Assembly: GCA_963693305.1 (NCBI GenBank)
Contig: OY855906.1
Span: 17,648,161 to 17,712,160 of the forward strand
Length of the DNA: 64,000 nt
Direction: 5' to 3'
Origin: Meandrina meandrites
Lineage: Eukaryota > Cnidaria > Anthozoa > Scleractinia > Meandrinidae
Made by a program: the position numbers and the translations under genes. Of this stretch, positions 6,965-53,463 are shown in pieces (the first letter of the stretch is position 1; each line of letters starts with the position of its first letter). The notes beneath the pieces are model-generated. The model had not been told where the DNA came from, did not search any database, and was given only the letters and a program-made list of their open reading frames with translations.

Positions 6965-7145
6965 TTTGGTCTGGTCACGTGTCTGCTAGATTCTAGCAGA
7001 TTACAAATAAACAACATGGGGGAGGGGCAGATAAGTGTTGTGTTTGTCACTACTGAGTATAGGGGAGAGCGGAAAGTGTTGTAAATCAAAACAACCGCAC
7101 GTGGACGTGTTTTCGCGCTTGAGCACTTTCGTTGTTCGAGAACAA

Positions 7146-7577
7146 ATGTCGAATGGGAATCTTTCGCAAACGCCCAAAAAAGTTTGTAGACCATCTGCTA
7201 ACGTAAATTCAAGTTGCTGCAGGCTGTGTAAATCGATAGGAGATGTATCCTTCTCAAAGAACATCTTTGCGAAAGGAAATCGAGCATTGCTCGCCGCTGC
7301 AGAAGACATTTGTGGTGGGCCGTTGAGACGAGATCAATTATTGCCACATCTACTATGTAGGCCATGCGAAAGACGTTTGAAAAATTTTGTAAACTTTAAG
7401 ACCACCATCAAAGAAAGCCAGAGTTCTTTCGAAAGGGTGAAAAGATGTGTCGAGATATCGCCGTCCGTTTATCGCACGCTGGCCAAAAGTGCAAAGGAGT
7501 CGGGATCGCGAAGCCGCCGTGGTCTCAGTTTTGGAATTTCCAGGGCTGGAGAGCTGCAGCCTTCAACAGGGAAGGAG
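7146..7577 (+). CDS. exon 1: ZAD-like zinc-binding N-terminus
   Basis: Chosen start ATG at 7146; an in-frame ATG also exists at 7035, but the sequence between is low in conserved character. Residues 25-28 (CRLC) and 71-74 (CRPC) form a C-x2-C...C-x2-C arrangement followed by a basic helix (ERRLKNFVNFK), as in ZAD-type zinc modules. The exon ends GAG|GTAAGG on a codon boundary (phase 0). Reading into the intron gives an unrelated tail that stops at 7697. Confidence 0.65.
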
Positions 7578-7712
7578 GTAAGGGAGTTTTTTTTTAACCC
7601 TCGTTTCTTCGGTGTCGATGTATTTCTTTCATTTTTTATGGCCTTGAACGGCATCGCTTGTTTCGCCGCATTACCGAGTCGAGTTGTTAAAAGGTGACAA
7701 ATTTTCTTTCAG

Positions 7713-14477: not shown

Positions 14478-15294
14478 CTTGTAGACCGGCTCCATAAATA
14501 TGGGTTTTGCCTCTCAAAAACCATGAAATATACCATCCAGGAAGAGATTGGAGATCATTTCCTAGATCGTGCAGTTGAAATGTTAAAGGAAGGCAGAAAA
14601 TTTGCATTTGTTCTGGACAACATAGACTGGGATGTTCGGGTCCATGACATGCGTTCTGAGAATCAGAACAAAAGTGTCCATGCCGTAGCCACAAGTATAG
14701 TGTTCAGCCGCGTCACTTCTGATCACTTATCTGATGATGGTCCCAAGAGAAATCTGGCCGATTGTGAGATGAAAGACCTGCTCACCATAACTGACGAGGA
14801 AAAGCGGTGTACACGAGAGCGCTGCAAAATATTCATAGCCAGAATATTGTGTGAGTCATTGTCAGCTTTTGAGTTTCTCAAAGAAGTCCTGCCACCTCAT
14901 ACACCTTGCCAATATCAAGAGCAGATGAGTTCAAAGTCTGTTGTAGTTCCCCTACCGGTACTAATGAAGGACGAAAAGAAATATGCAGATCTCGTTGATG
15001 TATTGGATCAGCTTGAGGCTTGGTTACGAGAATTGTACACAAAAGCTGGCTGGTGTGTTCCTATTGAAGAAGAACATTTCCCACCCGGTCCACCAATAGC
15101 TGCCCCTTCTAGACCAGATCAGCCATTATCACATGTGCCGCCAGTGGCAATGCCCGATGATCCTTTGGCAAATGTCAAAATACCTTGTTTTGGTGACCAA
15201 CTTACAAGAGTGAGGCTGGCTGGTGCCAAAGATTTGAGAGCTGGAAGCCGTACCCCGCAAGATAGATTTGATCACCAAAAGAAGCTTTCTGAAG
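14478..15294 (+). CDS. exon 4: core block of the DUF6589-like protein
   Basis: Acceptor CCTTTTTAG|CTTGTAGAC, donor CTGAAG|GTAAAC. It encodes about 272 residues, including LDNIDWDVRVHDMR, a histidine/alanine-rich continuation (NKSVHAVATSIVF), and near the end IPCFGDQLTRVRLAGAKDLRAG, which I recognise as recurrent in this cnidarian family. The aspartates in LDNID could be part of an RNase-H-like acidic site, but that is speculation. The last 12 residues look divergent, and the exon ends with one extra base that does not fit exon 5. Confidence 0.65.
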
Positions 15295-15777
15295 GTAAAC
15301 ACAATTAATGCTAAATTGGACGAGATTAGGCCAAAAAATCTCAAAAAAACTCCACAGCAATTCATTTAACAAGTTCTGATATTAAGGTCACAGGATTTTT
15401 TTAAATGATTCCTCTGTGTGGCTAAATATTTGATTGTCACCACTCTTGCATCAAAAAAATACAAACAAACAAAACGACGTCCCATCCACATCAGTTGGTG
15501 AAAGAGCCTGTAACATTTTCAAAAGTTTAAAATAAATAGAATCAGAAACTTTATACATTTTGTTTTCATTTTTTTAGGTTTAGAAAAATGGAAGATCTTG
15601 TTTACATTAAAGCATTTATACCTCTTGAAATACATTTACCTATCATTTTTAAAAATGAACTCTTTGAATTTAATTTTGGCTAGTCATCTGTCTGCTAAGT
15701 CCATAATGTAATCATCCCAATTTCCTGACTGTTAGTATTTTTATAAGCATTCCATGCTGATTGATTTTTTTTTTCAG

Positions 15778-16800
15778 CTTGTCTTCAAGAAGCTTTACAA
15801 GAACTCCGGAAGAGAAAACGGGACCCTGCGGTACTTTAGGGAGAAGCTCCAACGCAGAAATGTGACACAGGATGTCAAGCATTACGAAGATTGTGAGCAG
15901 CTTTTTATTAGTGTTGGCAGGAGCTTTACAATTGAGGCACTGATCCAGTTTTTCAATATGGAGAATAAAGATGGCCGTCCAACCAAAAACAGGCCCCCAT
16001 ATCATATCTTAGATGTGGGGGACCACAAAAGGCAGTATTTTCATTCTGTGTTGGACAAATTTATTGATCACTTTCTTTTACTGCCCAGCCCTGTTCCCAA
16101 CGGTGACGAGGATTTTAACCCTGAGGAGGATTTTGTTTCAAACTATTCTCTGTGCCTTCTTAAGTATTTTTTCATTCTTGTTGACTTCAAGGATGCAGTT
16201 AAAGAAGGAAATGGGGAGAGGCTTGCCACCCTTCACAAAGTCTTACTTCCCCATTTTAAGTCATTGCCTGGCTTTAATGCCTATGCAATAGAGATGCTAA
16301 TAAGTATTATTCAAAATGAGGTTTTTCTCAGTGATGCAGAAGCTCATAACTGTACATGGGCTTCCACTGCAAATTGGAAGGGTGGTGTAGGAAAGAACAT
16401 TGAGATTGATCTTTTTCAAGAAAATCGCAACAGAGATCTTAAGAAAGAAATCAAATCTATGGGTGCCAACAAGACGGATAAGGCAATCGATCGATCTAGT
16501 AGAGCGTCTGGGGGAGAAAGGCAAACTGTGGAGAACTTTGACAATCAGGTCAACAGAGGTATCCAAGCATCTTCCCACGGGCATCAATCTTCAGATGCAG
16601 ATGAAATGAAAGTGCTGGCAGACCTGAGAGTCCTAAAGCCATTTAACACAGTACCAGGTCGAAAGCATGACTCCTTTCAAGATATTATGGGTGACCCTTT
16701 GGCAACCCTTAACGAAGCCGAATTGGAGAAGTGGCTACGACGGCACAAGAGGAATCTGCTCCTGGATGCACCAATGTTTAATGATGAAGATGAGTCCTAA
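15778..16800 (+). CDS. exon 5: C-terminal block of the DUF6589-like protein
   Basis: Acceptor TTTTTTTTTCAG|CTTGTC. 340 codons to the stop at 16798-16800. Contains GTLRYFREKLQRRNV, ILDVGDHKRQYFHSVLDKF, NCTWASTANWKGGVGKNI, a basic GANKTDKAIDRSSRAS segment and a conserved-looking end (LKPFNTVPGRKHDSFQDI). The frame is phase 0 at the acceptor, so it cannot follow exon 4 directly without a frame change. A missed small exon or a second lesion is needed. Confidence 0.65.
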   Translation, partial: LVFKKLYKNSGRENGTLRYFREKLQRRNVTQDVKHYEDCEQLFISVGRSFTIEALIQFFNMENKDGRPTKNRPPYHILDVGDHKRQYFHSVLDKFIDHFLLLPSPVPNGDEDFNPEEDFVSNYSLCLLKYFFILVDFKDAVKEGNGERLATLHKVLLPHFKSLPGFNAYAIEMLISIIQNEVFLSDAEAHNCTWASTANWKGGVGKNIEIDLFQENRNRDLKKEIKSMGANKTDKAIDRSSRASGGERQTVENFDNQVNRGIQASSHGHQSSDADEMKVLADLRVLKPFNTVPGRKHDSFQDIMGDPLATLNEAELEKWLRRHKRNLLLDAPMFNDEDES

Positions 16801-21744: not shown

Positions 21745-22096
21745 GAAAAAATCGAGTGTAGGTTTTTGTCGAGTGTCGAGGGTCGAGGGTAAAATGTCGA
21801 GGGTTCATTAAAAGATGTCGTCTGATTATCTATTATCTTTTTTGTTTATATTTTCATATTATTGTTTTATTTTTTCCGCAAGATTTCCCGCCTTTTTCGA
21901 TAAGATCTTACAGACTGAAATGAGCGGATGTTAGTTGGCGCGTTTCCTCTCACTTCAGCGATCGTATTTCACTTGCACTGTCACGTCTCACTTGCGCGTT
22001 TCTTAGTTGTACGTGGAACACGAAGTGGGAGTATTTCTGACAGTATTCTCCTGTCACAGTACAGTTTGTCGAGTTGTCTCATGTACGGTGTTAGAA

Positions 22097-22252
22097 ATGG
22101 AAAGCAAATTAGAACAGCTAGGATTTGAAGTATCATTTAATCCGCCAGGGGACGGGGATTGTTTTTATTCCTCGGCTGCAAAGGCGCTGGGAATTCCGTC
22201 GCAGACGCTGAAGAATGTAGTCTTCGACTACCTAAGGAATCACCAATTTGAC
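22097..22252 (+). CDS. OTU-like cysteine protease first exon (partial)
   Basis: 52 codons from the ATG at 22097 to a strong donor (TTTGAC|GTGAGT, phase 0). An in-frame upstream ATG lies at 22007. The residues PGDGDCFYSSAAKALGI match the OTU catalytic block (Asp19, Cys22 nucleophile). The catalytic histidine would lie in later exons, which are not visible in the element, so the gene is truncated here. OTU domains are deubiquitinase-type proteases and occur in several transposon families. Capture by a MULE versus an original element gene cannot be decided. Confidence 0.65.
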
Positions 22253-22585
22253 GTGAGTATTTATAGCTTACTCTGGTACGATAAAGATAAGTCTGTTTTG
22301 TCAAGTGACAGCGATCAGTTATAGAATATGAAGTTGTCGTATAAAGTATAAAGATGTTTTCTTCTTTTGTTAGCCAGCAATGCATGCGGTTGTTGATATT
22401 TCGAACGGATCAAGGGCACCCAACGGAATATTTCGGTAAAATATCTGTTCGGATGGAAGGTCGCCTAAGAATTTCGAAATTTTTTCCCAGCGACGCTCTA
22501 GACTTCTCAAATTTTTTCGGAAAACCATAAAGTTTCCCTAGAATTTTCGGAATTGATGTGCTCACTTTTATCATGTCCCATAATT

Positions 22586-22771
22586 GGCCGTTTTTATACT
22601 AGAGACGCGTTACCCGTCTGGACGAGGTTGGGCAAACATTTTGCAAACCGTCCGGTTATCCGTCTCTAGTATAAAGACGGGCGCAAGACGCGTTACCCGT
22701 CTGGATGAGCTACTTTTGGAAATCCGTCGTTCAGGACGCATTTCCAAAAGTAGCTCGTCTAGACAGGTAAC

Positions 22772-22802
<31 letters not shown>

Positions 22803-22877
22803 GATAACCGGACGATTTGCAAAATGTTTGCCGAAACTCGTCCAGACGGGTAACGCGTCTCTAGTATAAAAACGGCC
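22586..22877. mobile_element. 292-bp near-perfect palindrome (MITE)
   Basis: Symmetric about 22731.5. Ends GGCCGTTTTTATACTAG and its mirror, flanked by ATT on both sides (22583-22585, 22878-22880). The two strands give nearly identical 89-residue open frames (22584-22853 plus, 22610-22879 minus), a by-product of the symmetry and not a gene. Repeated GACGCGTTACCCGTCT words occur in both arms. Confidence 0.8.
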
Positions 22878-23547
22878 ATTTTCGGACGGTTTTGTTTGTT
22901 CTCTAAAATTTTCGTTTGGCTTAATTATTCCAAAAGCTGCTAAAAGTTTCGGTGAGCATTAGAGGTAATCAGGAATGTACGTGAACCTAATGAAAGATAA
23001 AGGCAATTGAGGTGATTGAGTTCAGCATTAGCCTACTTATCAGATTATTGGAGAAGTTATTTTTGTGGTCAGAGCATCTAAAACGATCAAATTATTCGGT
23101 TTTGACCGTAAAACTGATTCCTACGCCAACAACAATCCCTTGATCGTACTCGATCCTGTCGTATAATTTACACCCCCTAACGTTTTCGGATGAATAGGTT
23201 TAACGCCTATAATATTCGGATAAACATTTATATTGCCTAGTATTTTCGCGAAATTTCGATAGGCACACGTATAACGAAAAACTTCCCCTAAAATTTTCTA
23301 GTGAAAATATGGTCTCTCAGTGTCCTCGAACTTTCGACAAGATCCATCAGGATAGCTAAAACTTTCGGATGACTCAAAAAAGGACCCTAGAATTTTCGAA
23401 ACGACGAAAGTTCCCCTTAAATATCCGAACAGATTAATATTTTTTAGGGCATCTCCAAATTAACTAAAAAGCCTTCTAGAACATAGAGAAATCCATTTAC
23501 GACACTTCTGACGTCTTTGGAAAGATTCGGTCGTTGGGTGCCCCTGA

Positions 23548-23680
23548 TAGTGTATGAGCCAAGGGGGGTTGTCGGTACCATATTGATGGACAAAGAATGA
23601 TGTGATTTTTCTTAATGTACTTCACCTATAGTTTAAAAATATGTGTGATAGCATTATTCAAAGTGTCATATTCTGTGTTT
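23548..23680 (+). repeat. left terminal inverted repeat of the nuclease transposon
   Basis: Outer 13 bp identical to the mirror of the right end. Inner similarity is scattered up to CAAAGTGTCAT at 23659-23669, followed by a G-rich tract. Confidence 0.75.
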
Positions 23681-24291
23681 TTAGGGGGGGAGGGGTGTGT
23701 CGTATTTTGCCCGATGGTGTTTTGTAATTCTCCTTCAACAGGTGCCTGGAATCTCTGTAAATATGTATAATAATACGTTACAAACATTACTTTTGATATG
23801 AATTTCAGGTTGACGCTACGCAATTATTTAAGAAATTATTTGTAGTCATCATTTACCTTAGGGGGTGGGGGTGGGGGAAAATTATTGCATGTAAATTTTG
23901 GATTCAGTCCCAAAACAAAAATTATTATTTGGAAACAAGATAACAGTTACAATGTTTTTGTATAATAAAATTGTTTTTCCGGCCCAAGCAGAATGTTCTT
24001 GTGTTTTTTCTGCCGTTGGTAGGCTGAAAATATTCTTGCGGATATTCTACAAATAATTAACACACATAATAACAATCTTTTCTAAATCTCTGCTTTGGTT
24101 TTAGTTTTAGAATTTATTCTCAGAATTTTGCAATTTTCAGCCTCAATATTCTTATGAAATAAATTCTTGTAGAAAAAAGAGTGCAAGAACCACTTTTTTC
24201 TCTTTTCCTGGGCTACCTGTGTGGTTTTTTGTAAGTTGAGCCTTCAGTACCAACTGCTGACTTCGTCCAGTGAGCTTTCTTTGAAGCTGAG

Positions 24292-24932
24292 GTAAGTTTT
24301 AAGTTCATATTTTTGCATCGTTGCGCTTCAAAATGAATAGTTTACACTAAAAAGATTAATTTTTACCTTATGTAGAAGCTTCTTAACCGTTTGTATTCCA
24401 AAAAACGAGATTTCAGACAATATTTTCGTCTCTTTAATATCTGTAAGTATTCAAGATGGCGGCCACAAACTGAATGTGATTTGTACGCTTTTTATATCCA
24501 TACTTTCGCATTGTTGCACCTGAAAATGAATGTTTTACACTACAAAGATTAATTTTGATCTTCGGCAGAAGCTTTTTATCCGTTCATCTTCCTAATAGAA
24601 GGAGCTTTTAGACAATATTTTCGTCTCTTTGATAATTGTAAAATTTCAAGATGGCGGCCATAAATTGAATAAGATTTTTAATCCTTTTTTTGATATGTAC
24701 CCTAGAGCTTCTGTTCATCGAAAAATATCACCTTATGATTGCATCTGCCTAAGTGATAATTAAGGGCAAACGCCCGGTGAATACGGCATGTTTTGTTTTT
24801 GAATTATGCCAGAAACTTGCTATTTTTCTAGTGACATAGTTTACTAGTCATCCTAGGAAATATTACAAAACGAATTATTTATGCTTTGGCCTGAAATATA
24901 GGCTTTATCTCTTTTTTATTCGACTTATACAG
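24292..24932 (+). other. probable 5'-UTR intron of the nuclease gene
   Basis: Perfect donor CTGAG|GTAAGT at 24292 and acceptor CTTATACAG| at 24932, 17 nt before the chosen start codon. The interval contains two ~190-bp direct repeats. Transcription start is not visible. Confidence 0.45.
24300..24690 (+). promoter_or_regulatory. two direct ~190-bp repeats each with a YY1-like AAGATGGCGGCC site
   Basis: The units begin near 24300 and 24493 (shared GCATYGTTGCRCYT, TTTACACTA, ACAATATTTTCGTCTCTTT) and each ends with AAGATGGCGGCC (24453-24464 and 24648-24659). That sequence matches the animal YY1 consensus, commonly near transcription starts. A regulatory role is inference from motif identity and duplication upstream of the gene. 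Confidence 0.5.
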
Positions 24933-24949
24933 TCAATGTCAGCAACCAC

Positions 24950-26779
24950 ATGGATGGACACAAGGGAACTTGCATAATTCATAAGAAAAGCTTGAAAATT
25001 GATGACGATCATTTGATTAGCCCCCAAAGCTTTGATTCCTGGGCAACGCTGTTAGAAGCGGCAAAGATTCAACAACACGACTCCCTTCTTCAAATTGCAA
25101 GAAATACCCGGGAAGGGGAAGTACCTGAAATATTTTATCATAGGAAATGTCGCAGTGTATTTACCAATAAGAGAGATCTGGAATCACTCAAAAGAAAACG
25201 TGCCCTGGAAGAGGAATTTCATGAAGGCGAAGCCTCACTTGAAACGCCGAGGAAAAGAAGTGCAACTTCCTCATCATCTCGTGTCTACCAACAGGAATGC
25301 ATTTTCTGTGAGAGACCCAAGTATGTAAACCGTATGCTAGAGAAGCTCGTTAAAGCTACTCAGCTAAGAGCGGACAAAACGTTGCGCCAGATAGCTACCA
25401 CTAGATGTGACGAGAAGATCATGGCAATTACAAGTAGAGAAATAGTCGCCGCAGAAGCACATTACCATCGATCCTGCTACCGTGACTACACCAGGCCCGC
25501 TCAACAGCGACAATCAGTAAAAAGTGAGCCGGGGGAGGATGCTGAATATGACGCATTTTCCGATTTGTTTCAATTTATTAGAAATGAAGTTCTAGATTCG
25601 CAGGTCGTAACAACAATGATAGAGTTAACAAAGAAGCTGGAGTCCTTTCTTCAATCCAGAGGTATAGAAAAGCTGAGGGAATCGACCAAGAAGCACATCA
25701 CAAGGAAACTGGAGTCAGAGTTTGGTTCCTTGTTAGAAATTTTTCCAGACGAGAAAGGAAAGCTACTAGTTATGCCTGCAAACCTGGATATAAAAACAAC
25801 AGTGAAACAGAAGATTAACCTCGAAAAGGAACTAAAGAGAATGAAGTCCAAAGCCACAGACCTGCAGAGCGTCGTTGATCAGAGCGCTGCACACTTGAGA
25901 AGTGCGATTTCAGATATAAAGTGGACGATGCCTTGGCCTATTCTACCATCTGATTTATCTGTCGATCAGTTCCCGATACCAGAGTGTCTTCGCCAATTCT
26001 TGATGGGTCTACTTACATCTAATCCTGACGTGACTGATCCCTCTCCACGAGTGAAGATGTTACTTGAGTCCTTCAGTCAAGATCTTATCTATGCAGTGAC
26101 CTGTGGCAAGACAAAACCACCGAAGCAGATTCTCTTATCATATGGAGTCAAATCCTTGACTGGCAATGTAGAGGTTATCCGTATGCTCAACAGATTTGGT
26201 CATGGTGTGTCGTATTCCCAGCTTGAAGAGAACGACACAGCCTTGTGTCTCCAGAAAATCGCTGCCAACCTCAATCAGACGACAATACTGCCTGGAACAA
26301 TTCAGCCTTACGTTTTTACCAATCTAGCGTGGGACAACATCGACCGCCTGGAGGAAACCTTGACTGGAGGAGGCACTACCCACAGAGTGAATGGCATCGC
26401 GGTACAGCCAAGAGTCTTTGGGCCACATCCGCCACCTCCACAGCTACCTCCAATCTTAAAGCGCAAACAAAGGAGCATCACTTACGAAGAGCAACCTTTG
26501 CCCGCATACATAGCCGGTGAAAGAGTCGGTCCAGGTGCTATCGTAGCGAGCAGTGCCATGATGAACGTCCAGGAGGAAGAAGCCCAAAAAGCTCAAGAAA
26601 AGAATCTGATTTGGGTTGTAGCACGACAAACCAATGTAGACAACCAGAGTGTACCAAGCTGGACTGGTTTCAATGTTCAAACGCGATGCGAGGAGGATGT
26701 GAATGAAGATGTGGTGGCTTATTTACCAACAATAAATGCCCCAGCTACGGAGCTTAGCACCGTCAATGAGATCCTGTGA
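24950..26779 (+). CDS. nuclease-transposon protein, N-terminal part (ends at an in-frame TGA)
   Basis: 609 codons from ATG 24950. Two zinc-binding modules can be seen: residues 8-67 (C8-x2-H11 ... H64-x2-C67) and 117-176 (C117-x2-C120 ... H173-x2-C176). Both end in Y-H-x2-C-[YR], separated by a basic/serine linker; they probably contact nucleic acid. Residues about 200-340 are charged and helical. From about 400 there is a conserved-looking block (YGVKSLTGNVEVIRMLNRFG, TNLAWDNIDRLEETLTG, GIAVQPRVFGP) I associate with unnamed multicopy cnidarian proteins. The TGA at 26777-26779 is followed by the same frame, so this is one gene with a premature stop. Confidence 0.8.
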   Translation: MDGHKGTCIIHKKSLKIDDDHLISPQSFDSWATLLEAAKIQQHDSLLQIARNTREGEVPEIFYHRKCRSVFTNKRDLESLKRKRALEEEFHEGEASLETPRKRSATSSSSRVYQQECIFCERPKYVNRMLEKLVKATQLRADKTLRQIATTRCDEKIMAITSREIVAAEAHYHRSCYRDYTRPAQQRQSVKSEPGEDAEYDAFSDLFQFIRNEVLDSQVVTTMIELTKKLESFLQSRGIEKLRESTKKHITRKLESEFGSLLEIFPDEKGKLLVMPANLDIKTTVKQKINLEKELKRMKSKATDLQSVVDQSAAHLRSAISDIKWTMPWPILPSDLSVDQFPIPECLRQFLMGLLTSNPDVTDPSPRVKMLLESFSQDLIYAVTCGKTKPPKQILLSYGVKSLTGNVEVIRMLNRFGHGVSYSQLEENDTALCLQKIAANLNQTTILPGTIQPYVFTNLAWDNIDRLEETLTGGGTTHRVNGIAVQPRVFGPHPPPPQLPPILKRKQRSITYEEQPLPAYIAGERVGPGAIVASSAMMNVQEEEAQKAQEKNLIWVVARQTNVDNQSVPSWTGFNVQTRCEEDVNEDVVAYLPTINAPATELSTVNEIL

Positions 26780-29291
26780 AAGTCTGAAGACATCAGAAAA
26801 AGGCTTAATCAGAAAGACATCGTGGTAGTATTGGACCAAGCATTATACGCCAAAGCATGCGAAGTTGCGTGGAAAAGTAGAGAGCTTTACGAAAACATCA
26901 TTCTTCGCTTAGGGACATTTCATACGATCTGCAATTTACTGTCCATCTTAGGGAAGCGCTTTCAAGATGCAGGCTTGAGAGATATTTGTATCGAATCTGG
27001 CATACTAGCTGAAGGATCAGTGTCTAGTGCTGTTGAAGGGAAGATGTATAATCGTGGTGTTCGCATCCACAAGTACATCTATGAAGCCCTAATGCGACTC
27101 ATATGGAAGCAATTCTTGCCATGGCTTACAGCTAACCATGAAGATAAATTGCGTGAGCTACGTAACCTCGAAATCAAGGTCACCGACATGGTTGATGAAG
27201 TAGACCTCAAGCAGTGTGAAACTATTGTGAACAGTGATTGTTTCAAAGAAATTCATACGCTCTGGAGGCAATACTTGCAACATTTGCGCTCTGAGAATGG
27301 TCCACTGTCCTGCTTTTGGATGTCGTACATTGACATTGTAGGTGATATACTACTTGGATTGATCCGAGCATCCCGTGAAGGTAACTGGCAGCTCCACCTC
27401 CATGCCATTCGCAACATGATCCCGTGGTGCTTCGCCTACGACAAAATCAACTATGCCAGGTATCTACCTGTCTACCACGCTCGGATGATGAATCTGCCCT
27501 CCGAACACCCCGACGTGTATTCCAACTTCATGGCTGGGATGTTTTCTGTCCAACTGACTGGAGGAGGCTCCTTTGGCCGCATTCCTGTGGACCAGACGAC
27601 CGAAGTCACTGTCAACAAGGACACGAAATCAAGTGCGGGCATAACTAAGTATAGTCTGAAGACAGGAGCAGTAAACAGGTTCTTTATGACAGCTGAGTAC
27701 CGATGCTCTTTTCTTGCTCATTTAAGAGACATGGTTCAAGTGAAGCGACCATCCTATCATCATGACGAGATGCTGTCAACAAGGAAACGCAAAGATGAGC
27801 AAGCAGTAACAGCAGTAGAGAGTCTGATTGAAAGCTGGAACAACCCCTTCACGGAACGCAAAGAGCTTGTTAGTCTGTCTACCGCCAAACAAGCACCTGG
27901 AGATGTAACTAGAGACCTGCTTAACGCGCAGCAAGTCGGCGAAAAGGCCTACCAGGAGTTTAGAGAGCAACGGCTGGAATCGTTCCCACCACAGAAGAAA
28001 TTCCATGACACAATTAATTTGAAGAAACTGAAAACCTTTTCTTCCATTAGTAAGAAAAAAAAGGTCTTAACCGACGGCAGGACGATGATCTTGAAAGCTG
28101 ACAGATCCCTCTTCGGACGAATCATAATCATTGGTCAGAACCGGAAAATCGACATCAGAGAACTACTCCAGTACAGCCTCGGGCCACTACCGTGGTCTTT
28201 AGCTACTGCAGAAGGGTTTCCCCGGAAGACTAACAAAGCCACGCTGGCCACCTCCCTCCAAATGGATGTGCAGTTAGCTGATGGTCTCCCTCAGAACTCA
28301 GCTACTATCATTGATGGTATGAGTCTAGTTCAGAAGTTGAGCGTTGGTGGAGGACAGACGAGTTTTGGAATGGTTGCCTCTTCACTTCTAACAAAAGTTC
28401 TTCACGAGGGTTGTCAGAGCAACAGAATCGACGTAGTATTCGATACTTACAGAGAAAAGTCAATAAAGAATGCAGAGAGAACCATGCGTGGAGAAGTTGC
28501 AGGAGTCCAGCTGTCACATATCAGCGCTACCCAACTGGTCAAACAGTGGAGAATTTTCTTGTCAGAGGTCAATAACAAGACAAGTCTGATCAAGTTCATT
28601 TCGAAAGAATGGAGAGGGGAAGAGTGCAGGAGAAGGCTGAAAGGGAAGACGTTGTTTGTCACTGCCGAAAGCGAGTGCTGGAAGATAACTGAAGAGGGAA
28701 GTGAGAATGTAGCTGAGCTGAAAAGTAACCAGGAGGAAGCTGACACGCGTCTGCTGCTCCACGCCGCACATGCCTCCCAGGAAGGGTACCTGTCAGTCGC
28801 AATCAGCTCTGAAGATACGGACGTGTTTATCTTGCTCCTAAACTTCTCCAGCATCATCAATGCCAAGCTTTTTATGAGATGCTGCTCCAGAACCAGGACC
28901 CGTCTCGTGGACATCACAGAAGTGGTTCGGAGAATCGGGAACGAGGTATGCAATGCACTGATTGGGTTGCACTCTTTCACAGGGTGTGACACAGTCAGTG
29001 CATTTGCTGGAAAAGGGAAACGAGGTGCCCTAAAAATTCTGAAGACCAACTCAGATGCTAGAAGAGCTTTTCTGGAGCTTGGCAAGTCATGGAAGGTATC
29101 AGAAGATCTCTTAATTCTCCTCGAGAAGTTCACCTGCTCCATGTACATGCCTGTGGGCAACAACACCACCTGCGTGAATGATGCACGGTACAAGCTATTC
29201 TGTGCAAAGAATGGGGAAGTGGAGTCGCACCAGTTACCCCCTTGCAAGGACTCCCTTCGAAAACACATCCTTCGTGCAAACTACCAAGCAG
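26780..29291 (+). CDS. nuclease-transposon protein, XPG/FEN1-like nuclease part
   Basis: Continues in frame from codon 611. Counting from the ATG, acidic motifs occur in the order and context of the XPG/FEN1 superfamily: D1122 (ATIIDGMSLV), E1263/D1265 (QEEADTRLLLH), D1289/D1291 (SSEDTDVFILLL) and D1347 in FTGCDTVSAFAGKGKRGALK, which resembles the GCDY...GIG helix-hairpin region that binds DNA. The expected role is divalent-metal phosphodiester cleavage of branched DNA. The ~450 residues between the TGA and the core contain ILRLGTFHTICNLLSILGKR and GSFGRIPVDQTTE, of unknown function. The exon ends A|G GTTAGT, phase 1. No whole-length homolog can be named without a search. Confidence 0.8.
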
Positions 29292-29391
29292 GTTAGTGAA
29301 CACTTTAATTTCCATGCAGTATTTGTAACTTGTTTGTCGCTTGAAATCAGATAAGGATGATATCAAATGCAGTATTGCATTAATCCTGCAG
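29292..29391 (+). other. 100-bp intron in the nuclease gene
   Basis: Donor CAG|GTTAGT, acceptor CCTGCAG|CT. Only this acceptor restores the frame, giving ANYQAAIWRRSLEANPDIPS across the junction, which I recognise as a recurring phrase of the family. Two nearer AG sites (29350, 29372) lead to stops. Confidence 0.75.
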
Positions 29392-29726
29392 CTATATGGA
29401 GACGGAGCCTAGAGGCTAATCCAGACATCCCCAGTCCAGATGGTGTGGGGTGGTTGACACAGACCTCTACTGACGGTGAATCCACTGAACTTCTAATCGA
29501 TTGGATGGATGGACAGCCGGCTCCTTCCGCTGTGCTACAATTACTGGCTTGTAAATGCAAGAAGGCCTGTGAACTACCGAGCTGTGTTTGTATGAACAGT
29601 GGGTTAAAGTGCACGGATCTCTGCACGCTTAAGGATTGCACTAACCAGTCGGTTCAAGACGATCCCGCAGATGTTATCGATAATGACACTGACGAGGATG
29701 ATGATGCCTTTTTTTTAACTATGTAG
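29392..29726 (+). CDS. nuclease-transposon protein, last exon with CXC cysteine motif
   Basis: 111 residues plus stop. After SPDGVGW and a WMDGQPAP linker comes a cysteine array: CKCKKACELPSCVC then CTDLCTLKDC. Its spacing (C-x-C-x3-C-x5-C-x-C ... C-x3-C-x5-C-x-N) resembles half of the tesmin/TSO1 CXC (CRC) DNA-binding domain. The tail is acidic (DNDTDEDDDAFF). The whole spliced frame is 1,558 codons counting the internal TGA. Confidence 0.8.
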
Positions 29727-30399
29727 TTCATTGCTATTGTTAAAAGTTCTTAGAGCTACAAAAAAATCCAATTTTTTTCGTAATTGTTTGTGGATGATCA
29801 CTGTGATGATCACACCATGCATAAACTGAGCGGCCAGCTTTTTTTAGGCTAAAAGTTACTCAAAAGAATAACAAAGCATTTTCTTATGCATTAGCTTAAG
29901 TTAACTTGCCTGAAAAGAATAGATTCGGCGATAAAAATAGTTTTTCTACAGAGATTTCAAGCAGCAATGCCAAAAACAGGTTTGACCGTGAGCCCGGGAG
30001 TCTGGGACCGAGTTTGCAAAAGTGAATATTTTTACATAATTGTGGTTAAATATCACCGTTTTGATATTGAATTACATGCTTGTACTATCGAACCTTATTT
30101 TAAGTGAAACTTATGGGATAACATTTAACAATTATGTGAGAAAATACAAAATATAGGGTGTTTGTCAATCTGAAACCTGTCTTTCGGTATATTTGATGTT
30201 TCGCCGATCACGTGATCACTATGACGCGACGTGCACTTGTGAGTTAAGAGTGATTGTTATTCAATTAAGTGTAACTTTTGCATGAATTAAGCATGTATAG
30301 ATACGTTAGGTACTTATAAATGCTTTTACCCCACATTAAGAAATCTATGCAAGCAAAACTTTCCTGTGGGGGAGGGGTAAGAAAAAATGGCATTCTACC

Positions 30400-30537
30400 C
30401 CCTAAGATGACACTTTGTGCAGTGCTATCATACAAAAATAAAAACTTGGGTTAATAACCTAACTTGATATGGGTATGAGTCTTTGTCCATTTGAGTGGTA
30501 CCAATCGACTAATTTTAGGGTCCTGGCTCATACACTA
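30400..30537 (-). repeat. right terminal inverted repeat of the nuclease transposon
   Basis: Ends GGCTCATACACTA. ATGACACTTTG at 30407-30417 mirrors the left-end block at a similar distance from the terminus. 29727-30399, between stop and TIR, is AT-rich and shows nothing coding. Confidence 0.75.
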
Positions 30538-30894
30538 TGACGGATTATGACATGTACACTAAAGTCTAAAGGTCACATCGCGAGTCATTCAGTATACTGC
30601 ATGTTTTGATGGCCTTTTTAATATAATATTGAACCACTAAAGTTAAGCCGCGATTTACCAAGACTGAAAAGTATAATGTTCTGAATGTTGTTGTTTAGTT
30701 TTGGCAGAATATTCAAACAGGGCAGATCATAGCTTAAATACTTATTTCCTTGACTAGCTTTAACGATTCTTTGAAACTTCGAATTCACCTTATTTTTACC
30801 CCCGGAAAGCGGGCCAATCATCAGTAAAACCGAATATGCATTTACTTTACATGGTAGATTTAATTGTTTACTCTTAGTAAATTATTATTTTTAA

Positions 30895-31051
30895 TGAACC
30901 CTCGACATTTTAATGAACCCTCGACATGTTACCCTCGACACTCGACATTTTACCCTCGACCCTCGACATTTTACCCTCGACCCTCGACATTTTACCCTCG
31001 ACCCTCGACATTTTACCCTCGACCCTCGACACTCGTCAAAAACCTACACTC
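30895..31051 (-). repeat. right TIR of the Mutator-like element with CCCTCGAC minisatellite
   Basis: About four tandem 21-bp units (TTTTACCCTCGACCCTCGACA register) plus two ATGAACCCTCGAC variants, ending at CCTACACTC. The left TIR has only one unit. Open frames of repeated YPRPSTF / LPSTLDI residues are products of this repeat. Confidence 0.85.
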
Positions 31052-43321: not shown

Positions 43322-43526
43322 GTCTCCTTTTGTATTCTTTTTGTGCCATTTTCGAGCACGAACTTACAATATGGCTAATGGTCTCGTTACTCTGTTTACA
43401 GATTCTACATTTCGGGTCATTCTGTGACTTGTCAACCATCGTTTTAATAGTTTGTTCGTATTGCTTGATCTTGTGCAGCAATGATAAGAGCTTCTGTTTC
43501 TCTCTTGAGCTTTTAACCAGGTCCAT
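43263..43526 (-). pseudogene. LINE CCHC segment
   Basis: Contains CRICKQSNETISHIVSSC (C-x2-C-x8-H-x4-C), the zinc module between RT and endonuclease in R2/R4-type elements. One frame off from the RT frame (shift near 43520) and from the endonuclease frame. Confidence 0.75.
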
Positions 43527-44523
43527 GTTTCCTCACTTCTTTGTTCTTCACCCTGTCTTGCAAACTGTCCATATAACGGCTTTTCTTTCCATTCTTGAAT
43601 ATTTTCAGTTCTTCTCCTCGCTTTAAAGCTAAGTTGGCAGCTGTTTCTCTATTCTCATCCCCATTCCTCCTGACAGCTTTTAACAGTTCTTCCTCGCTTG
43701 TTTGGACATAACATTCTAGCGATATCTTTGCTTGATTGACACAATCCTCTACGAATATCAAACCTCTCCCTCCGTCCTTCCTTGGCACATAAAGTCGTGC
43801 CACACAGTCCCGTGGATGGAACCCTCCATTCATGGTTAGCAATTTTCTTGTTCTGCGATCTAGATCCCGAAGTTCTTGTTTCCTCCATTCAAGCATTCCT
43901 CCTGCATATCTGACGAGTGACACTGCCCAGGTGTTTATGACTTGTATCAAGTTTCGACCGTTCAACTTCGAGCGGGCAACTTTTTTAACACGTCGTAAGT
44001 ATTCTTTCCTGATTTTGTCCTTCATTTGGTCATGAAGCATGTCGCTGACCTCAAGCACTCCTAGATACTTGTACCCTTCGCTTTCTTCCATTGCTCTTAT
44101 TGTAGTGTCATCTGGTAGTGTTATGCCTTCTGTCTGTGCCAGTTTGCCAAATTTCATACTAATGTCATTGCTGAATATTCTCACTGATTGTATTAGTGAG
44201 TTCAGTTGGAACTCACTTCTGGCGTAAAGCTTTAGATCATCCATAAAGAGAAGATGATTGACCTTTTTCTTGTTGGCATATGTGTATCCCGCTTCGCACT
44301 TTCTGAGGACTAGGGACAGCGGAATCATGGAGACCACAAAAAGGAGGGGGGATAGGGAATCACCCTGGAAGATGCCCCTTTTGATGGAGACACTTCCAAG
44401 ACTTTCTCCATTTGATGTAAGTTCCGTTTGCCAGCCATTCATGGAATTTTCCAGTAAGGTCTTAACATTTTGAGCTGCACCAAATAGTTCTAGACATTCA
44501 AGAATCCAGGAATGCGTTATCAT
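43513..44523 (-). pseudogene. LINE reverse transcriptase, truncated at motif A
   Basis: 336 codons. It begins within motif A (KAYDMITHSW; the lysine-alanine-tyrosine lie upstream of the ATG). Motif B is GIFQGDSLSPLLF, the catalytic motif C FMDDLKLYA, followed by GYKYLGVLE and the thumb. Fingers and any upstream zinc fingers are missing, as expected for 5' truncation during target-primed insertion. Confidence 0.8.
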
Positions 44524-51823: not shown

Positions 51824-53463
51824 AATGCTGGGAGGAGGGAGCAGTCCCCCAAGAGATGCGAGATTCTATCATCACAACGCTGTACAAGAACAAGGGTGAC
51901 CGCAGTGACTGTAACAATTAATGCGGCATCTCTCTCCTTTGCGTTGCTGGCAAGCTCTTTGCTCGTGTGGCACTTCGTCGCCTTCAGCAGCTTGCAGAAA
52001 GAGTGTACCCTGAATCTCAGTGTGGTTTTCGATCGCAACGCTCAACAGTTGATATGATTTTCTCTGTGCGACAGCTACAAGAAATGTGCAGGGAACAACG
52101 ACAGCCTCTCTTCATTGCCTTCATTGATTTAACTAAGGCTTTTGATCTGGTTAGCAGAGATGGCCTCTTTAAGATCCTGCCTCTCATCGGCTGCCCACCA
52201 AAGCTTCTGAGCTTTCTGGAGTCTTTCCACAACAACATGCACGGAACTGTTCGTTTCGATGGCAACATGTCTGAGGCATTCAACATTCGCAGCGGAGTCA
52301 AACAAGGCGGTATGCTGGCTCCCACCCTCTTTGGAGTCTTTTTCTCAGTGCTCCTGAAACATGCCTTTAGAACAACAAATGCTGGCATTCTTCTGTGTTC
52401 CCGCACTGATGGCAAACTTTTCAATCTTTCCCGACTCAGATCGAAAACCAAAGTCAGCCAAGTTCTCCTCAGAGACTTTTTATTTGCCGACGATGCAGCT
52501 CTGGTTGCTCAAAGTGACAACGATCTCCAAAACCTCCTCAATGGCTTTTCGAACGCCTGTGATGACTTCGGCCTAATCATCAGCCTCAAAAAAACCAAAA
52601 TCATGACTCAGGGTACCGACGCTTCCTCCTCTCTTTTCATCAAGGACTATGGACTTGAAACGGTCAACAGCTTCATCTACCTTGGTTCTACTCTCACTAG
52701 CACCACCTCCCTTGACACAGAAATAGGAAAGAGGATTGGACACGCTGCAACCAACATGTCAAAGCTTTCACAACGTGTCTGGGAAAACCAGAAGCTCACT
52801 ACTCCCACCAAAATAGCTGTATACAGAGCCTGCATCATCAGCACGCTCCTCTATGGTAGCGAGTCCTGGACAACATATGCATCAGCACAAGAAAAACGCC
52901 TGAATGTGTTCCACCTGCGTTGCTTGCGGCGCATCCTCTCCATCTCCTGGCAGGGCCACATTACGAACAGTGCTGTCTTAGAGAGAGCAGGCACCCCTTC
53001 CGTATATGCATATGCCCTTCTTCGCCAAAGACGTCTGCGGTGGATTGGCCATGTACATCGAATGGATGAGGGCCGCATTCCCAAGCAGCTCTTGTACGGA
53101 GAACTAGCACAAGGAAAAAGACCGGTTGGACGACCCAACTCCGTTTCAAGGATGTGGTTAAGAGGGACATGCTGGGACATGCAGGCCATTGGTCTTCCAA
53201 TCGATTCGTGGGAGACTCTTGCCAGTGACAGGAGTGCGTGGAAAACAAATTGTGCCAAAGCCCTACAAGAGAGAGAAAAGATTCTGCACATCAATGTGGA
53301 TACCAGGAGAGAACGTCAGAAGGCCACCACTAATTCCACCCACCCACCCACTAATTCCACCTATGTCTGTGGTTCTTGTCACCGCATCTGCCGATCAAGA
53401 ATTGGACTCCAAAGCCATCTCAGAACATGTTTAAGGAAATGTACAATTACGAACTCATGCTAA
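51824..53463 (+). pseudogene. RTE-like LINE reverse transcriptase and C-terminal zinc module
   Basis: After CWEEGAVPQEMRDSIITTLY an in-frame TAA occurs near 51920; from 51967 a 498-codon frame is open. RT motifs: FIDLTKAFD (A), VKQGGMLAPTLF (B), FLFADDAALVA (C), FIYLGSTLTS. Downstream: RWIGHVHRMDEGRIPKQLLY and a terminal CGSCHRICRSRIGLQSHLRTC-type C-x2-C-x12-H-x3-C finger. Two stops and a shift make the copy inactive. Confidence 0.8.

Follow-up and report, generated by a model that had tools for sequence, protein, structure and literature searches.

We analyzed a 64,000-nt stretch of the genome of the scleractinian coral Meandrina meandrites (assembly GCA_963693305.1, contig OY855906.1, positions 17,648,161 to 17,712,160, forward strand), called the window below; positions are those of the window. 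It contains a 6,990-bp element that is very probably an AcademX-type member of the Academ superfamily of cut-and-paste DNA transposons, with a predicted DDE core and a predicted XPG/FEN1-like nuclease in one protein. The first-pass annotation of the window had proposed either a transposition nuclease of a new, non-DDE type or cargo that another enzyme mobilizes. We saw that the same polypeptide has a predicted DDE/RNase-H domain with a conserved D-D-E; a DDE transposase in the element was what the annotation itself had named as speaking against its proposal. We regard the element as a fine representative of an already known kind rather than a new type of transposition enzyme; it is probably a new AcademX family, placed by comparison with the published description.

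The gene and the proposed domains of its protein have the following coordinates:
24950..29291, + strand: exon 1 of the transposase gene, with one in-frame stop in the window copy
29292..29391, + strand: intron, GT...AG, 100 bp; the joined exons stay in frame
29392..29726, + strand: exon 2, encoding the C-terminal part, which has a Cys-rich CXC-like motif
24971..25480, + strand: N-terminal Cys/His motifs, possible zinc fingers, judged by eye from sequence
26321..27730, + strand: predicted DDE/RNase-H transposase domain, residues ∼458–927, from the structure model and a second structural comparison
26333..26335, + strand: D462, proposed first catalytic Asp (WDNID), on strand 1
26777..26779, + strand: in-frame TGA, codon 610, in the window copy only among the copies readable there
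26834..26836, + strand: D629, proposed second catalytic Asp (VVLDQ), just past strand 4
27602..27604, + strand: E885, proposed catalytic Glu (VDQTTE...N), in a helix
28232..29290, + strand: predicted XPG/FEN1-like nuclease domain, residues ∼1095–1447

In the second structural comparison the best neighbor of the DDE model was the P-element transposase; the transposase core is probably P-element-like, with putative zinc-binding motifs at both ends of the protein. Conservation was assessed in relatives (258 found, 120 listed; alignment A1 took 49 and alignment A2 took 54 of the 120). The second DDE Asp, the Glu and a GCD motif occurred jointly in 50 of the 62 relatives of the A1 and A2 set, and the first-Asp motif in 34 of these 62, many of the proteins being shorter than full length. 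Plain Foldseek gave no significant match for the DDE model, and the weak Foldseek superpositions lower our high confidence in the AcademX reading slightly.

Pfam domain DUF6589 overlaps part of the DDE region in three of eight scanned relatives (P0069 with E 2.2e-7, above the cut-off; P0096 and P0107 just below it). Since it matches part of this region, DUF6589 may itself be a DDE transposase domain. It was found at no fewer than 99 places in the genome, a different gene of the window (14478–16800) among them; our literature search found no paper on it.

The predicted model of the nuclease domain has a PIN-like fold with acidic residues in FEN order (D1122, D1165, E1262/E1263, D1265, D1289, D1291 and D1347), which supports an XPG/FEN1-like fold; the acidic motifs on which the first-pass annotation had based its nuclease call are indeed present in the protein. 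The acidic active-site residues are 98–100% conserved in an alignment of 55 rows. With FEN1, XPG, Exo1 and GEN1 the domain has in common the fold, the order of acidic residues and a conserved Lys/Arg past the second acidic motif; it differs from them in being only ∼10–16% identical to the best matches, in having no Pfam XPG-family or PDB sequence match and in being fused to a transposase. Nothing rose above the cut-off in a Pfam scan of both long reading frames and of exon 2 (a weak PF03638 match at the C-terminal Cys-rich motif, E 0.02, was below it), and PDB sequences searched with a profile from alignment A2 gave no match at E ≤ 10; thus, neither fold is visible from sequence alone.

One could speculate that there is no DDE enzyme at all and that the XPG/FEN1-like nuclease itself moves the element as a new type of transposase, as the conservation of its acidic residues and the failure of plain Foldseek to call a transposase in the other part of the protein would suggest. 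We consider this highly improbable: the protein itself has a predicted DDE/RNase-H domain with conserved D-D-E, and the two parts mostly travel together in the genome. There, with scoring confined to the best candidates, we found 125 matching places for the XPG part and 112 for the DDE part. For 57 of 78 XPG places (tested against 91 DDE places) the DDE part lay on the same strand, upstream and no more than 3 kb away, and it stood just upstream of 51 of the 57 near-full-length XPG places. The 57 paired XPG places are not independent cases because many are copies of the same families. A eukaryotic transposase lacking a DDE domain would have counted as a major discovery; the claim fails.

Academ elements encode an XPG nuclease and a Cys-rich zinc finger (Cys8), and the AcademX nuclease is reportedly of the XPG type (work ascribed to Kapitonov and Jurka, 2010, and to Kojima, 2020). 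With whole-word matching, our literature search found no paper joining Academ with an XPG nuclease; a search combining XPG, transposase, terminal inverted repeats and target site duplication returned solely a paper on the CSB-piggyBac fusion. Academ is counted among the DDD/E superfamilies (PMC9587614), and accessory enzymes are known in other transposons, including a RecQ helicase in Academ (PMC3627910). According to PMC10045372, AcademX duplications are 3 or 4 bp versus 9 or 10 bp in AcademH, a difference tied to the encoded helicase and nuclease. The element has in common with AcademX, as published, a DDD/E transposase (predicted here), a nuclease within the element and a 3-bp duplication (published, 3 or 4 bp); no difference was seen among the features compared, the comparison being with the published description. 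AcademH, which that source puts in the same superfamily, encodes a helicase and makes duplications of 9 or 10 bp, whereas the element has a 3-bp duplication and no Pfam helicase match; membership in AcademH was rejected on these two grounds.

The absence of an Academ reference sequence from the comparison, together with the P-element transposase as best structural neighbor, leaves some room for a DDE superfamily outside Academ, as yet unnamed, that independently gained an XPG-like nuclease. We find this improbable, given that the AcademX description in PMC10045372 combines a nuclease with a 3- or 4-bp duplication. An XPG nuclease together with a Cys-rich zinc finger, known from Academ, also speaks against it.

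The P-element transposase is not known to carry an XPG domain and makes 8-bp duplications, in contrast to the predicted XPG-like domain and 3-bp duplications seen here. The element was not assigned to the P element superfamily: its duplications are 3 bp long despite the similarity of fold.

How the two centers might cooperate can be outlined as follows: (i) the protein would bind the TAGTNNRTGAGCC ends; (ii) the DDE site would cut the 3′-ends and join them to the target at positions 3 bp apart, yielding the 3-bp duplication; (iii) the XPG site would act on the 5′ strand, removing or trimming it, whether by making the second-strand cut during excision or by taking off a flap once the ends are joined. 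For the nuclease we favor such processing of the element's 5′ strand as its role in transposition, and we infer a division of labor between the DDE and XPG sites; residue conservation supports the view that both sites matter. In its strongest form, which we put forward only tentatively, the XPG-like nuclease would be an obligatory second catalytic center, the DDE site acting at 3′-ends and the XPG site at 5′-ends, so that a single eukaryotic transposase chain with two nucleases would follow a logic like that of Tn7 TnsA/TnsB. The possible analogy with Tn7 is that of a DDE enzyme with a second, unrelated nuclease; TnsA, by contrast, is restriction-enzyme-like and a separate protein, while the role of the element's nuclease is a presumed one.

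The nuclease could, on the other hand, be passenger cargo: a repair gene captured from the host and not needed for transposition, with all cutting done by the DDE site. P-element, hAT and similar DDE enzymes transpose without such a nuclease, and at a DUF6589 transposase-like locus of the same genome (L040, 4.3 kb, the only one read) no such nuclease was seen by eye. Cargo is an unlikely explanation: the active-site residues are 98–100% conserved over the 55 rows, nonsynonymous change is low and the DDE–XPG pairing is retained across families at ∼28–58% identity. In the transposase protein, nonsynonymous differences (0.29–0.30) are far below synonymous ones (0.82–0.86, saturated), indicating purifying selection on the protein. 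A nuclease that processes the 5′ strand remains our preferred reading, and the residue map makes its role in AcademX transposition testable by site-directed mutation. The element retains value as a clean family with sharp bounds and recent activity, in which both proposed catalytic centers are mapped to residues.

The bounds of the element are as follows:
23548..30537, + strand: whole transposon, 6,990 bp
23548..23560, + strand: left 13-bp terminal inverted repeat TAGTGTATGAGCC, with looser inverted similarity on to ∼23672
30525..30537, − strand: right 13-bp terminal inverted repeat, with looser inverted similarity from ∼30404
23545..23547, no strand: TGA target-site duplication, left copy
30538..30540, no strand: TGA target-site duplication, right copy

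The coordinates, the length, the exact 13-bp inverted ends and the TGA on both sides are exactly as first annotated. The annotation had also described imperfect inverted repeats of ∼130 bp; inverted similarity does reach ∼125 bp, yet it is patchy past 13 bp (ungapped segments of 28 bp at 75% and 43 bp at 74%). When 23548–30537 and one TGA were excised in silico, the element interrupted by the insertion regained a matching inverted end (TCAAGGGCACCCAACG / TCAGGGGCACCCAACG) and was again flanked by a CGGA duplication, in agreement with the restored end that the annotation had reported. This interrupted element (22412–23547, ∼1.1 kb, TCAAGGGCACCCAACG ends, CGGA duplication) has the 6,990-bp transposon at its extreme end and contains a hairpin at 22582–22881, with 147-nt arms that are 94% complementary.

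A search of the source genome (551 Mb, 56 contigs) found the left end at eight places and the right end at seven; seven copies have both ends, and six of them are flanked by a 3-bp duplication (TGA, AAA, TTT and three times TAA), copy L017 being the one without it. The ends are therefore not due to chance. Five of the seven are full length (6,960–7,005 bp); the other two measure 6,256 bp and 2,267 bp, the latter (L012) having lost a large internal part and carrying a TAA duplication. Whether full-length copies always carry the gene, and whether short internally deleted copies with a 3-bp duplication exist, were questions raised with the first-pass annotation; the gene is present in 5/5 full-length copies, and L012 is one such short copy. 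The six longer copies differ pairwise by only 0.5–1.0% (the 2,267-bp copy left out), indicating fairly recent activity.

The single two-exon gene of the annotation is borne out, although the in-frame stop at codon 610 and the DDE domain had been overlooked. The joined exons make 1,558 codons ahead of the final stop; the junction reads YQA-AIWRRSL and matches relatives P0002 (AIWKRSL) and P0018 (AIWRRSL). Codon 610 is TGA in the window copy versus TGC in four other copies (L017 is without that stretch and L012 was left out); the remaining four full-length copies likewise have shifted or interrupted reading frames. P0001 from the protein collection, of 1,226 residues and without the codon-610 stop, is 99% identical over 823 queried residues. 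The next named relative in that collection is from a sea anemone, Actinostola sp. (87%); others are from the molluscs Nucella and Mercenaria, the sea spider Nymphon, the lancelet Branchiostoma and two fish.

Two sister families with ∼55% identical protein have ends TAGTCCGTGAGCCAG and TAGTCCATGAGCCAG, near the element's own; a related gene is here again paired with similar ends and 3-bp duplications, and ends are shared among the seven two-ended copies as well. The sister-family end TAGTCCRTGAGCCA occurs 287 times in the genome versus five times for the reversed control. An exact 3-bp duplication flanked eight of 10 convergent TAGTCCRTGAGCCA pairs, hand-picked from the first places listed: 4/4 pairs enclosing an XPG place and 4/6 pairs of ∼3.7 kb inside which no listed DDE or XPG match falls. 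These ∼3.7-kb elements with sister-family ends TAGTCCATGAGCCA (e.g. C1:26576932-26580637 and C1:40118458-40122151) are possibly a non-autonomous family.

Elsewhere in the window, a second, different transposase-like gene has DUF6589 in two frames, 14478–15308 (E 4.9e-11) and 15736–16800 (E 1.8e-19); a zf-AD zinc finger upstream of it, at 7035–7697 (E 1.9e-8), may or may not belong to the gene, and no convincing pair of ends was recognized for it. The 6,990-bp transposon is located inside a tRNA-Leu cluster: 18068–63458 holds 22 predicted tRNA genes, all on the + strand, of which 20 are tRNA-Leu with anticodon aag or tag. A short reading frame (22007–22324) that lies directly upstream of the nested elements weakly matches an OTU cysteine protease (E 0.011, below the cut-off). 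A tandem repeat at 30898–31031 consists of 6.5 copies of the 21-bp unit ACCCTCGACATTTTACCCTCG, and the frames 43513–44523 and 51967–53463 resemble, by eye, retrotransposon reverse transcriptases.
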